A stretch of DNA of 24,228 nucleotides from a virus, in IMG/VR virus record IMGVR_UViG_3300030116_001245, positions 1 to 24,228 of that record; one strand, 5' to 3'. The position numbers and the translations under genes were made by a program. The notes under the pieces were generated by a model, which saw only the letters and a list, made by a program, of their open reading frames with translations, did no database searches and had not been told where the DNA came from. This document shows positions 14,601-21,738 of the stretch, in pieces; positions within the stretch are counted from its first letter, which is position 1; each line of letters begins with the position of its first letter.

Positions 14601-16158
14601 ATGCTTCAGAAAAATTGCCACTTTCATATAGTTCTTTAACTGCTCTAACAGAATCTATACTACTAGCATTCGCTGTATTTCTGGCTATTTCCTGCGCTTT
14701 TGCAGCAGTCATACCGGGCTTAGTCATAAGTGCTTCAAACACTAAACGCTCTGCATGCGACTCTTGATCAACACCTGTTTCATATGCAGTTCTTAATTTC
14801 TTACCAGCAGTAGTTCTAGCAGCAGCATCAAGTAATCGTTTTACTACTCCACCGCTTGACTTTATTGGTCCATCTTCAACTGCACCAGTAGTCGGAGATT
14901 CTTCTTCGGCAGAAGCCTTTCTTTTATTTCGTTCTCTTTGTAAAAACCTTACCCATTGCGCTCGATCTTCTAATAAATTTTGTTTATATTCTACTAAGTC
15001 AGGAGCATATTGTTTATCTTTTGCTTTTTGAGCTAGCTCTTCTGGATTTTTTAATAGCTCATCAATTTCATTAATCCATTCTTCAAGTTGTATTTCTCTG
15101 TTTGATTTTGTTGCGGCTTCTGGCCCTGTCCATCCTTGCTCTTGAGCAGTTTTAAGTGGTCTTTCACCACCTTTAATAGGCATATCTTTTGTTAAATCTG
15201 ATGGATATCCTTTAATATAATTTTTGTTCTTACCTAGAAGTGCGAGTAATCCTATAAGAATAGAACCACCAATACCTTTCTTAATTAACTCAGTCCGTTC
15301 ATTGTCTTCTAACTTACGATCCATCGCTATGTCGCTGTCCGTTTGGCTATTAATCTCATCATTAACTTCCTGTGTACTTACTGCTTCATAGTCATCAAAG
15401 TTAAGTCCTTGAGGAGCACCATCTGGGGGAGTATCTTGTGGTGCAAGAACAGTTGCTCTTGCTTTTTCCCACTCGGCTCTTGGAATACCACCAGTTCCCC
15501 CTAACCATGTCGGTCTGGCATTAGGATTCCACATTGTAGGCATAAGTGTAGCTGCTGGAGTATTTTGTAATGCTTCATCTGACTCTATATATGCTCTCAT
15601 TCCTTGATCCATGCCCCCACCAATACCAAGTTGAGTTAGTCCTCGTGCTATTGTTTGTTTCTTTGTTCCTGCTTTAACAAAAGGAGTTACAGTTCTAATA
15701 AGTGCTGGAGCCATTCCTGCTCCTTTAGTTATCCATCCCGGTCCGGGAATAGCAAAACTAGCAGCAAGTCGTAAAGGTTGGTCAAGTAATGAAACTGGTT
15801 CTGGTATGTCTAATAGTTTGTTTACTCCCATACGCATTCCATGACTAAACTTAACGAATGGGTTTTCACCTAAATTTTTCATGAACTCTGTTCCCCAACT
15901 AGTATTAGGATCATCATCTCTTTGAACAGTAGTTGCAACTAACTCGTGAAGCATTCCCGGAACAGCAGGAATACCTGTTAATATGTCTGATAGACCAGCG
16001 ACACCTTGCTTTACTGGATTTACTGGGAGTACTCTATCTTCGGGAGGTGTGGAATCTACTTGTTGTTTTCCTAGTGTCGGATTAACAGTAGTTGGTTTAA
16101 CTTCATAGGCACTGAAATCGGGGGCTGACTTAGCTTCATAAGCAGAAAAATCAAGCAT
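11647..16158 (-). CDS. Giant virion/ejection-type protein (LPD38-like C-terminal region)
   Basis: A protein of 1503 residues, the largest in the window. The N-terminus has two copies of DFSAYE (3-8 and 14-19) then low-complexity, Pro-rich sequence. One hydrophobic segment lies near residue 295 (GGSILIGLLALLG). The middle is long, helical and charged. The C-terminal half (MDRKLTGYWPQFFNQWSKNMM, then ASIPYWGAMWQGWSVAGRAL, then SRILYIPGKHPSEAIIIP) recalls the LPD38-type region found in large phage polyvalent/internal proteins. It ends a run of four structural-type genes, much as T7 gp16 ends the internal-core set, so a capsid-internal protein ejected into the host is likely. No transglycosylase or protease motif was found. 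Only the domain likeness is uncertain; the gene is certain. Confidence 0.85.
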   Translation of the reverse strand: MLDFSAYEAKSAPDFSAYEVKPTTVNPTLGKQQVDSTPPEDRVLPVNPVKQGVAGLSDILTGIPAVPGMLHELVATTVQRDDDPNTSWGTEFMKNLGENPFVKFSHGMRMGVNKLLDIPEPVSLLDQPLRLAASFAIPGPGWITKGAGMAPALIRTVTPFVKAGTKKQTIARGLTQLGIGGGMDQGMRAYIESDEALQNTPAATLMPTMWNPNARPTWLGGTGGIPRAEWEKARATVLAPQDTPPDGAPQGLNFDDYEAVSTQEVNDEINSQTDSDIAMDRKLEDNERTELIKKGIGGSILIGLLALLGKNKNYIKGYPSDLTKDMPIKGGERPLKTAQEQGWTGPEAATKSNREIQLEEWINEIDELLKNPEELAQKAKDKQYAPDLVEYKQNLLEDRAQWVRFLQRERNKRKASAEEESPTTGAVEDGPIKSSGGVVKRLLDAAARTTAGKKLRTAYETGVDQESHAERLVFEALMTKPGMTAAKAQEIARNTANASSIDSVRAVKELYESGNFSEAFNVVMSTEKLAPILRTLQGMSKERQKIFNDGLLARTEKQRRAEFGEGASFVRDKDGNPWSDTTINSAIHALKMDDELFKFSTQISTIMDDMLKFTVARRVLRQDIVDGWKAKFVDEAGNAYLPGMVTTSKGTYLSRLARLLGHNTTKGKELGMMARFKGIADDPELPRYKPLDPISSVQQYMHDIVDFVNRNNAEYNMLSYLSGTRMHKGTVVIDNANAGQHAQFVGRYDSDVLGNVKGNIKWSQVAGEGKSKGALTSAEKNVRKKFNFDERTSIEDWIAKHDDLMVVTRDGESLIYNVPDPLLRSAIKMDRKLTGYWPQFFNQWSKNMMALTTGRGSPFGFAAFLYNQQVSTLAVTSGQGFKEGAIQWLGSFRGIWQHLSHNVAKDISTILTRNLDREFGLFQNLAPEQAKALRGWAQKKIQNVMMQDLQTESGLVTSAYQGSPYSGNITNALESVVMPMRETYGANALPFIWRTWKNINDAFHEGPALAKAMRLAGEAEIPTGAGKGKFWREVGRQTREVTGDVNKLPSNPTMRNIHASIPYWGAMWQGWSVAGRALKKNPGKFGAAVMGTIVFPTAMEIIWNSTADGDQTWDIQNADGTVQKMTKREHFWKFLSPEQRNNSRILYIPGKHPSEAIIIPAEPMFSLVRGTTIELMDLFFNLSAGVTTDNGDHMLAGLTRFFDIPTPPPLGAAMAFADEGKDFRIGLNVVTDPEEGKSFSFLHAAPRGNSRVGGDRNVRATGDEFSTRMGAVLTELGGAGMQTLLAASNAYFGGRDDVKVPFSEGFPRFLSEAGLGLKKSARFVNPLFPGTLSFNPNNETTRKLFAARTSLTEIVERTKILNTGGMSATGRLLAGGDTLVPTEDPIEHQLMTIAPTILAEITKMDGLIKDLKDKVTQARNANKLFGEGGRVIIPKSAQEKQNYIDAWNLDIATLKAMQWQVIETHMQEFNEMMSRKLRRNINIDLTAYSPRSNLMKESTSSPN
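16102..16152 (-). repeat. Tandem DFSAYE repeat coding for the N-terminus of the giant protein
   Basis: Residues 3-8 and 14-19 of the 1503-residue protein are identical (DFSAYE), spaced 11 residues apart, each followed by a short Lys/Pro linker. At DNA level the two copies are similar but not identical, so it is a conserved peptide motif or old duplication, not a recent slip. It may be a scaffold- or portal-binding tag. Confidence 0.7.
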
Positions 16159-19526: not shown

Positions 19527-19967
19527 CTAACTCAAAAATAACTCTCGTTCAATTGCTCTACGTCTTACTAGTCCAGCAAGTATTCTTCCACCAGCCCTTC
19601 GCCATTTTGGAAACTCATCTGCTGCACCAATTCTATCATCCCTATTTAGTTTAGATCTAAGTGTACTCGACTGAAGGTTTCCACTTCCAATGTTATAACA
19701 CAGTGAACATAGTGCGCTAAATTCATTACTGTCTAATTGTACTCTCATTAGCTTACTTACTGTTTTTTCACTTTGCTCCAGATCCAAACGCAACAACTCC
19801 TCAGCTTCTTCGTAATTGATAGGTTCCATATCCATCGTGACAGGTCTACCATTAATCCTAGTAGTCCCGAACCCAATTGTTGTAACCCCTGCACTACACT
19901 TGTAAGGGCGTTTTTCAAAGCCTTCAAATGTCTTAATAATATTAATTCCAGCATCATTGCACCTCAT
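19527..19967 (-). CDS. Endolysin: GH24 lysozyme (T4/P1-type)
   Basis: A protein of 146 residues that cuts the peptidoglycan glycan strand. From the ATG at 19967 the catalytic residues are Glu15 (TFEGF), Cys24 (PYKCSAG) and Thr30 (VTTIGFGT). The 9- and 6-residue spacings are the same as Glu42-Cys51-Thr57 of P1 Lyz. LCYNIGSGNLQSSTL and GRILAGLVRRRAIERELFL are the standard downstream family motifs. An open frame extends upstream to a TTG at 20006, but the ATG is preferred because the small gene upstream stops 5 bases before it and GGGGAAG precedes it. There is no SAR or signal segment, so it depends on the holin for release. Part of the holin-peptide-lysozyme cassette. Confidence 0.9.
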   Translation of the reverse strand: MRCNDAGINIIKTFEGFEKRPYKCSAGVTTIGFGTTRINGRPVTMDMEPINYEEAEELLRLDLEQSEKTVSKLMRVQLDSNEFSALCSLCYNIGSGNLQSSTLRSKLNRDDRIGAADEFPKWRRAGGRILAGLVRRRAIERELFLS

Positions 19968-19972
19968 TATTC

Positions 19973-20071
19973 TTAATGTCTTCCCCACATTTTCTGCCAC
20001 AACCAATTATCAAGTCTCGTTACCTTTTTAGAAACCCAACGAACTGGCACACTTCGCCAAATTCCCTTCAT
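19973..20071 (-). CDS. 32-residue Trp-rich basic peptide in the lysis cassette
   Basis: An ORF of 32 residues that opens MKGIWRSVPVRWVSKKV and ends WLWQKMWGRH, with five Trp among many Lys/Arg. Its ATG overlaps the holin stop as ATGA (20068-20071), and its TAA lies 5 bases before the lysozyme ATG, so it fits the gap exactly. Amphipathic Trp/Arg-rich peptides tend to bind membrane surfaces, so it may help holin or lysozyme action or act as an antiholin. That role is inference. It is too short for ordinary gene finders. The ribosome site is only the GAAGAA within the holin end, in keeping with coupled translation. No family recognised. Confidence 0.6.
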   Translation of the reverse strand: MKGIWRSVPVRWVSKKVTRLDNWLWQKMWGRH

Positions 20072-20517
20072 TTCTTCGACCTATTTATCGCTCTACCACC
20101 AAACCAAAAAGAAATCACAGCAGCAAACAAGGCTTGCGTCTGATCATCCCAAGTTAATTGTACCGCATCTAGAGAAGAAATACCAGAAGCAGTTAACGCT
20201 AAATAAGCAGATACTTCAACGAACAGGAACAAACCAAAGAAAGCATAAGTAATAACTGGTCTAACACTTCCACGTAAACCATCTATCCATTTAACTCCTG
20301 TGTTTTGTACTGATTTCTGTAGTGCTTCTACCTCACGTATATCAGCTTCTACATTAACCATCTCTAGTTTTTGTACTGCTAGTTCTTTTTGTTGCCTTAT
20401 TTGCACTTCCATTATAGCGAGTTCGTGCTTTTTGTCTTGCTTATCTTGAAAGTAATCCATGACTTTAGGAAGAAAAGAACTGCCAAATCCAAGTAATGAT
20501 CCAAGTAATGATAACAT
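20068..20517 (-). CDS. Holin, three-TM type (GTA_holin_3TM-like)
   Basis: A protein of 149 residues. A hydrophobic N-terminal segment (LSLLGSLLGFGSSFLP, residues 2-17) is followed by a charged coiled coil (about 22-70), then DGLRGSVRPVIT leading into a membrane span (about 88-109) and a last span (about 128-143, ALFAAVISFWFGGRAI). The GLRGSVRP turn, the QALFAAVISFWFGGRA end and the order are those of the 3TM holin family described from gene transfer agents. It would form inner-membrane holes that let the lysozyme next door out. A strong AGGAGAGGA lies upstream of the ATG, overlapping the end of the preceding gene. Confidence 0.85.
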   Translation of the reverse strand: MLSLLGSLLGFGSSFLPKVMDYFQDKQDKKHELAIMEVQIRQQKELAVQKLEMVNVEADIREVEALQKSVQNTGVKWIDGLRGSVRPVITYAFFGLFLFVEVSAYLALTASGISSLDAVQLTWDDQTQALFAAVISFWFGGRAINRSKK

Positions 20518-20521
20518 TATA

Positions 20522-20713
20522 CTAGTCCTCTCCTTTAAGTCTTTCTAATCTAACAAGTACAGATGCACACTGTTCTATGTGCCTTCGTAAATTCTTAGTA
20601 TTAATAGGAGCAGTTACTATGTGTGGTTCTTCACTACCATTCATATATTCCAGAACTATGTGTGCTAGTCCTGTATATTCTCCAGCCCTCTTTTCTAATG
20701 AACAACTAATCAT
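20522..20713 (-). CDS. Small hypothetical protein before the holin
   Basis: A protein of 63 residues from the ATG at 20713, which forms an ATGA overlap with the phosphoesterase stop and has GGAAGAG six bases upstream; a longer in-frame start at 20728 is less likely. The chain has an N-terminal beta section (SCSLEKRAGEYTGLAHIVLEYM) and a C-terminal helix (NLRRHIEQCASVLVRLERLKG). It is soluble, with two Cys. No family is recognised. Its end carries the ribosome site of the holin gene, so it belongs to the lysis transcript. Confidence 0.55.
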   Translation of the reverse strand: MISCSLEKRAGEYTGLAHIVLEYMNGSEEPHIVTAPINTKNLRRHIEQCASVLVRLERLKGED

Positions 20714-21738
20714 CGGTTTCTCTTCCATGTTAAGTACTCTGCTCCCTCTTCAATGTCAGCAAATGGTTTAATACGTCTAGTTAATGCAGATTCTAATGGA
20801 TCAATAACAAACATAATACTTGCTCCTTGAATATTATCATGAAATCCATGTCTCGTAGCAAATTCATCTATCCATTTATATCCTCTGGCCCTAGCTAAAC
20901 ATACAACTCGTCCATCATCAAGTTCTTCTTGAGTCATTGCCCAATTATGATGATGTCCAGCTATATAAATGTCTGCGTGTTCTCCCCAAAGTGCTGCCCT
21001 TTTTTGTCCATGTAGCCTATTATATATAGATGTACCTTTATGATTATGTGAAGCATCTATTTTAATCTCAACATCATTAGGGAATGACAGCATAAACTTT
21101 GCTCTCCAATCTGCCATAGGTATTTTATGTGCATTGAGTGTTTTAAGATATGTAGAGAACTCTCCATCCATTGCATCGTGATTCCCCATCAGCCATACGA
21201 TCCAAGGAATTCCACTGTCTTCTAGAAACCATCGAGCAAGTCTTCGCTCAGTTTTACGACTAACATCATTCTCTGCATATAGTCTTATAAGATTTCCATA
21301 GCTCCAGTTATCAGCAGTATCCCCAAGGTTTACACAATATACACCATCGGTATTAGCTAATGTATCTATGTCAGATCTTAACAATGGAATGTTACAGCCA
21401 TTAGATCCAAGATGAGGATCACCAATAAATGTAATACCCACAGGCTTATCGTCTTTTATTTTAACTTTAAACCACTTCATTGAATCTTCGTAAGCTAACC
21501 TATTTGTAAATCGTTTTCCCATATGGTCCAGGATTTCTTCCGCAGATATGTCATCATCAGGAAATGTTGGAAGTTCTACGTTTTCTACGCTTGTTGGTTC
21601 TTTTGTAACTTTAAGAAGTCTCTTAGCTTTTGAATTTGATATTCCTAGTTGTCGTGCTACCTCTGCTTTATTATGTAATTCAGCATAAAGGTTGTGTGCC
21701 TCAATGACCTCTGGATGGTCAGTTGTATAAGTCGTCAT
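20710..21738 (-). CDS. Calcineurin-like metallophosphoesterase with HTH-like N-terminus
   Basis: A protein of 342 residues. The metal-site motifs are complete: GDPHLG (106-111), GDTADN (139-144), GNHD (185-188), His231/His233 and GHHHNW (261-266), so a two-metal phosphoesterase is nearly certain. It could be an Mre11/SbcD-like nuclease, a phosphodiesterase or a nucleotide hydrolase. Residues about 8-45 (EVIEAHNLYAELHNKAEVARQLGISNSKAKRLLK) form a helix-turn-helix-like unit, as in phage proteins of this type that may bind DNA. A TGAGG ribosome site precedes the ATG. The setting between tail genes and the lysis cassette is curious for a nucleic-acid enzyme. The substrate cannot be read. Confidence 0.85.
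   Translation of the reverse strand: MTTYTTDHPEVIEAHNLYAELHNKAEVARQLGISNSKAKRLLKVTKEPTSVENVELPTFPDDDISAEEILDHMGKRFTNRLAYEDSMKWFKVKIKDDKPVGITFIGDPHLGSNGCNIPLLRSDIDTLANTDGVYCVNLGDTADNWSYGNLIRLYAENDVSRKTERRLARWFLEDSGIPWIVWLMGNHDAMDGEFSTYLKTLNAHKIPMADWRAKFMLSFPNDVEIKIDASHNHKGTSIYNRLHGQKRAALWGEHADIYIAGHHHNWAMTQEELDDGRVVCLARARGYKWIDEFATRHGFHDNIQGASIMFVIDPLESALTRRIKPFADIEEGAEYLTWKRNR

Follow-up and report, generated by a model that had tools for sequence, protein, structure and literature searches.

Disruptins are said to bind LPS and to be able to complement the loss of spanins. PMC12819732, citing Holt 2022, presents gp28 of phage phiKT as the archetype disruptin, describes it as a short amphipathic antimicrobial-like peptide and reports that disruptins are too diverse for systematic prediction. 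phiKMV-like endolysins have a C-terminal cationic amphipathic helix, for which an action on the outer membrane has been suggested, and spanins are often missed by annotation (PMC6139136). Here we describe a small gene in the lysis cassette of a 24-kb virus record, IMGVR_UViG_3300030116_001245, all 24,228 nucleotides of which were analysed and are referred to below as the window. It encodes a peptide that resembles each of these systems in some respects, and that belongs to a family with a near-invariant WLWxKxW core.

A peptide gene between holin and lysozyme

The plus strand of the window carries replication genes (for a Sak4-like annealing protein, a helicase, a DNA polymerase and a primase), and the minus strand carries lysis and tail-type genes, which places a peptide encoded on the minus strand in the late, lysis part. 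The peptide ORF is read from 20071 to 19973 (Table 1). As an earlier note on this DNA had claimed, its ATG overlaps the holin stop codon (TGA, 20068–20070) as ATGA, exactly to the base (20068–20071), and its TAA (19973–19975) is separated by 5 bases from the lysozyme ATG at 19967. The description of the ORF as filling the gap exactly in frame was right about the filling but not about the frame, as the ORF has its own, -1 relative to the holin. The five tryptophans and the basic character were confirmed, with a net charge of +7. The ORF list also offers a TTG start at 20006 for the lysozyme, which is unlikely, as the alignment with relatives begins at MRCNDAG. A metallophosphatase gene lies two genes upstream of the holin, and the interval between the two holds a 68-aa ORF.

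Table 1. Coordinates of the peptide gene, its neighbours and the counterpart in a cultured phage.
Feature	Location	Strand	Description
WLW peptide gene	19973–20071	-	32 aa, Trp-rich, basic; MKGIWRSVPVRWVSKKVTRLDNWLWQKMWGRH
Endolysin	19527–19967	-	146 aa, GH24-type phage lysozyme; PF00959, E 4e-41
Holin	20068–20517	-	149 aa; PF11351 GTA_holin_3TM (E 2.6e-5), phrog_6637; three-helix
ORF between phosphatase and holin	20522–20728	-	68 aa; no family match
Phosphatase	20710–21738	-	342 aa; PF00149 metallophosphatase domain, N-terminal helix-turn-helix-like stretch
XhlA-like protein, cluster C2	21979–22335	-	one N-terminal membrane helix and a coiled coil
HTVC033P peptide	MZ892993.1 14996–15160 (= L128 5980–6144)		unannotated frame overlapping gp34
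HTVC033P gp34 (annotated)	15063–15233		overlaps the conserved peptide frame

The closest described counterpart is gp28 of Escherichia phage phiKT (NC_019520), which is 56 aa long with a net charge of +7 and whose gene, flanked by those of endolysin gp27 and holin gp29, overlaps one of them by 8 bases. The window peptide is likewise short, carries the same charge and lies between an endolysin and a holin, an arrangement that it shares with two relatives (L001/L002), whereas the genes of other groups in its family lie beside, not between, lysis genes. The gene order of the phiKT cassette is opposite to that of the window. gp28 has one Trp rather than five and lacks the WLWxKxW core, and its amphipathic moment (0.68 versus 0.44 ± 0.10 in shuffled sequences) is stronger than that of the window peptide. 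Homology between the two was considered and rejected (hhalign probability 0.2%, HMM 1.7 bits). The window peptide is therefore not a homologue of gp28, but it may work like a disruptin.

Unlike the C-terminal helices of phiKMV-like endolysins, the window peptide is encoded by a separate gene, and its family is paired with five endolysin families. Similar to spanins (Rz/Rz1 and unimolecular), it is the product of a probable third gene of the lysis cassette, next to those for holin and endolysin, and in both cases the genes are small and overlapping. Unlike spanins, the family peptides have no lipobox, signal sequence or membrane helix and are too short to span the periplasm.

Evidence for a coding gene

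Of the 80 loci in which a related holin was found, L001 and L002 hold the ORF in the same holin–lysozyme gap. Amino acid identity to these relatives is 59% for the peptide, 69% for the lysozyme and 85% for the holin. When codons were compared between pairs of close members, pooled pN/pS was 0.36 in the proposed frame, whereas the two other frames gave 0.86 and 0.96. Ten separate pairs gave 0.34, compared with 0.78 ± 0.12 after randomisation (minimum 0.55 in 500 trials), and the window–L002 pair alone gave 0.36, a value reached by 0.4% of randomisations. The substitution bias that the earlier note had proposed looking for in relatives was thus found as a synonymous excess, and neither of the disruptions that it had named as counterevidence, frameshifts and stops, was seen. 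Family members often overlap neighbouring genes by a few bases (ATGA, TAATG), and a Shine-Dalgarno-like sequence precedes several member starts. Judged from these codon comparisons, the peptide gene is under purifying selection. The homologues and the synonymous bias support the proposal of a coding gene between holin and lysozyme, and we consider it almost certain that the ORF is one.

A phage family with a WLWxKxW core

We identified family members by scanning viral contigs for the back-translated WLWxKxW core and by searching with a profile made from the matches, in which a clear score gap separated true members (E < 1e-5) from chance matches (E > about 1e-4). This yielded about 45 distinct members on IMG/VR viral contigs in roughly 19 separately placed groups, a division that is our own, by peptide and context, and in which the groups are not all fully independent. 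The peptides are 28–66 aa long, with a net charge of +4 to +14 and 2–6 Trp, and share a motif that is roughly FW[RH]S-x9-13-[LF][DN]xWLW[RQ]KxW. The near-invariance of the WLWxKxW core is partly built in, because the core pattern served to find most members. Those found independently, by holin search or tblastn (L065, L067/L074, L063, L048, L045, L076 and HTVC033P), share the core with the variations YLW, WLWSK and WLWTK.

When 36 members were searched against Pfam, PHROGs and NCBIfam at E 0.01, no family was matched, and no relative was found in the PDB; the family is new to these libraries. A host or prophage gene was considered and rejected, as a pattern scan of 84,980 species genomes of bacteria and archaea returned only chance-like matches; plasmids contained no family match. 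Each larger record with a convincing member carries one copy. The gene is present in only 7 of 25 larger records that have the same holin, and is thus an optional module. Most holin relatives do not have it; in these, holin and lysozyme abut, often through the same ATGA, which gives the peptide the look of an optional module cleanly inserted. A locus search based on the lysozyme reached distant lysozymes, none with a member upstream.

The only annotated cultured isolate with a member is Pelagibacter phage HTVC033P, an HMO-2011-type phage (PMC9038755). The annotated gp34 of this phage is probably mis-called, because its frame has no evident counterpart in the relatives L176 and L145. The product of the next annotated gene, gp35, is listed with an amidase domain and matches PF01832 glucosaminidase. 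The description of the family as aquatic and mostly marine-type is based on recognised relatives, the Pelagibacter phages.

Placement beside cell-wall hydrolases

Besides the loci with the peptide gene between holin and lysozyme, there are others, L115/L118/L127, in which it lies immediately ahead of the holin–lysozyme pair. It overlaps the end of an M15_3 endolysin gene in L110 and of an SLT transglycosylase gene in L142, lies 67 bases from a convergent glucosaminidase gene in HTVC033P, and has Hydrolase_2 enzymes nearby in L122/L124/L149/L156. These neighbours represent five unrelated families: GH24, SLT, M15_3, glucosaminidase and Hydrolase_2. We measured this placement in the 19 groups that were found by DNA pattern or tblastn, without use of lysis genes. 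A holin or hydrolase lay within 300 bases of the peptide in 7 of the 19 and within 1.1 kb in 11. Random placement within the sampled loci gave tail probabilities of 0.0018 (300 bases) and 0.0003 (1.1 kb), and random placement in an assumed 45-kb genome gave 9e-6 and 3e-8, respectively. Placement beside hydrolases of five unrelated families points to lysis, and we consider it likely, judging from gene order, that the peptide gene has a role in this process.

The XhlA-like protein of the window matches PF10779 only weakly (E 4e-4, under the family cut-off). Its cluster, C2, is a recurrent neighbour, found within 3.5 kb of 10 of 41 distinct peptides and immediately before the peptide gene in L140/L064/L188/L065, and the window protein could be a lysis partner. 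A recurrent trio adjoins the peptide in L116, L140, L064 and L004 (clusters C7, C15 and C42), made up of a coiled-coil membrane protein (phrog_20984) and a secreted protein with cysteines, joined in some loci by a lipoprotein, with topologies that resemble i-spanin and o-spanin.

We also looked for a lipoprotein ORF, the mark of an o- or u-spanin, by regular-expression scan. There was none in the 24-kb window and no convincing one in the complete HTVC033P genome; the final lipobox filter recovers the lipoprotein of L140 and, in Salmonella phage SEN34, the Rz1-like ORF. In L140/L064/L188 a lipoprotein gene, perhaps for an o-spanin, directly follows the peptide gene. Mutual exclusion between the peptide and lipoprotein (o-spanin) genes was considered and set aside as a trend only (1 of 9 peptide-bearing holins versus 8 of 30), as lipoprotein genes near peptide-bearing holins are not significantly rarer.

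A possible third lysis component

AlphaFold2 predicted one helix in the window peptide, at residues 4–29 (mean pLDDT 79.7, pTM 0.35); a single predicted helix says little about function. The hydrophobic moment is modestly above that of shuffled sequences (mean z 0.79 in 29 members), and the whole-helix moment of the window peptide is low. The earlier note had suggested a membrane-active peptide that could time or assist lysis. The lysis-cassette part of this suggestion is supported by the company that the gene keeps across unrelated phages, whereas membrane activity, given the modest moment, and timing are conjectural.

Our leading, still tentative, explanation, which we put only slightly below an even chance, is that the peptide is a disruptin-like third lysis component doing the work of a spanin. 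In the window, translation of the peptide would be coupled to that of the holin, and the peptide would accumulate in the cytosol late in infection. Opening of the inner membrane by the holin would then admit it to the periplasm, where its amphipathic helix would place Trp at the membrane interface and Arg and Lys on lipid A phosphates, and it would permeabilise the outer membrane as the lysozyme cuts peptidoglycan. The charge, the tryptophans, the predicted helix, the position and the varied hydrolase partners fit a third lysis component at the envelope. Outer-membrane disruption, taken by itself, is a possibility that falls somewhat short of even. Against it are the weak amphipathicity, early-operon placement in several groups, the lipoprotein gene behind the peptide in L140/L064/L188, the groups with no lysis gene close by and the constancy of the core. 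WLWxKxW is kept far more strictly than would be needed in a generic antimicrobial peptide, and such rigidity points to a specific partner or lipid no less than to surface activity in general. It is conceivable, if doubtful, that through the WLWxKxW helix the family peptides bind one specific, conserved target in the envelope (lipid A, or else an envelope protein of the host) and replace spanins in phages of streamlined marine bacteria.

Alternative roles

The placement data also bear on a role earlier in infection. The gene occurs in late operons beside an endolysin, in terminase-proximal clusters and in replication clusters with a hydrolase (L149, L156). HTVC033P has it at the end of the early, DNA-replication operon, convergent with lysis genes of the other strand. 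A ribonucleotide-reductase-like gene (assigned by reading) precedes it in L126/L074 and L139/L177, where it likewise ends the early operon and faces opposite-strand lysis genes. Late expression is therefore doubtful in HTVC033P and in these groups. In the DNA available, five groups (L116, L119, L123, L146 and L223) are without a lysis gene in the vicinity, although several of these contigs end close to the peptide. Together with the strong conservation of the core, these settings would suit an early or middle host-takeover peptide with a conserved host protein or lipid as the target of its WLWxKxW helix; its closeness to lysis genes would then follow from the junction of early and late operons or from shared islands of small genes. 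However, in the window, L002, L140, L142 and L110 the peptide gene shares its strand with late or lysis genes and overlaps them, and placement tracks the hydrolase through different genome layouts. We regard host takeover as rather unlikely.

Similarly unlikely, by a small further step, is a lysis regulator, an antiholin or holin co-factor that binds holin or endolysin and sets the timing of lysis. The ATGA coupling in the window, the holin adjoining the peptide gene in the window, L002 and the L115 group, and a conserved core that suggests a protein partner would all agree with this. Yet a common surface for binding endolysins is unlikely given five unrelated neighbouring families, the peptide has no membrane-spanning segment like that of known antiholins, homologues of the window holin are missing from the DNA examined in several groups, and the same holin family functions without the peptide in most relatives.

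A small packaging or virion-associated protein tied to terminase is improbable: terminase-large-subunit-like genes (identified by reading, not by profile) follow the peptide in L142/L141 and L122/L124/L137/L146, but these are a minority of groups, and the L142 peptide gene also overlaps that of the SLT hydrolase. Weakest of all is a chance ORF without a protein product, which the length of only 99 bases and the absence of matches in curated libraries might suggest but which is already contradicted by the pN/pS of the ten pairs, in addition to homologues across many phages (E down to 1e-19) and the short stretches shared with adjacent genes in several groups, and is very improbable.

Implications for phage lysis

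About 13% of surveyed phages have no recognisable spanin, and the means by which they get through the outer membrane are an open question (PMC6139136). Because its conserved motif is tied to five endolysin families, the family described here can be found by profile and is testable, and one member is present in a cultured Pelagibacter phage, HTVC033P, in the annotation of which the gene was overlooked. On the basis of gene placement and conservation, this previously unnamed peptide family, widespread in aquatic phages and usually encoded beside a cell-wall enzyme, probably aids bursting of the host. If the family does replace spanins by binding a specific envelope target, it would represent a further, non-homologous solution to outer-membrane disruption.
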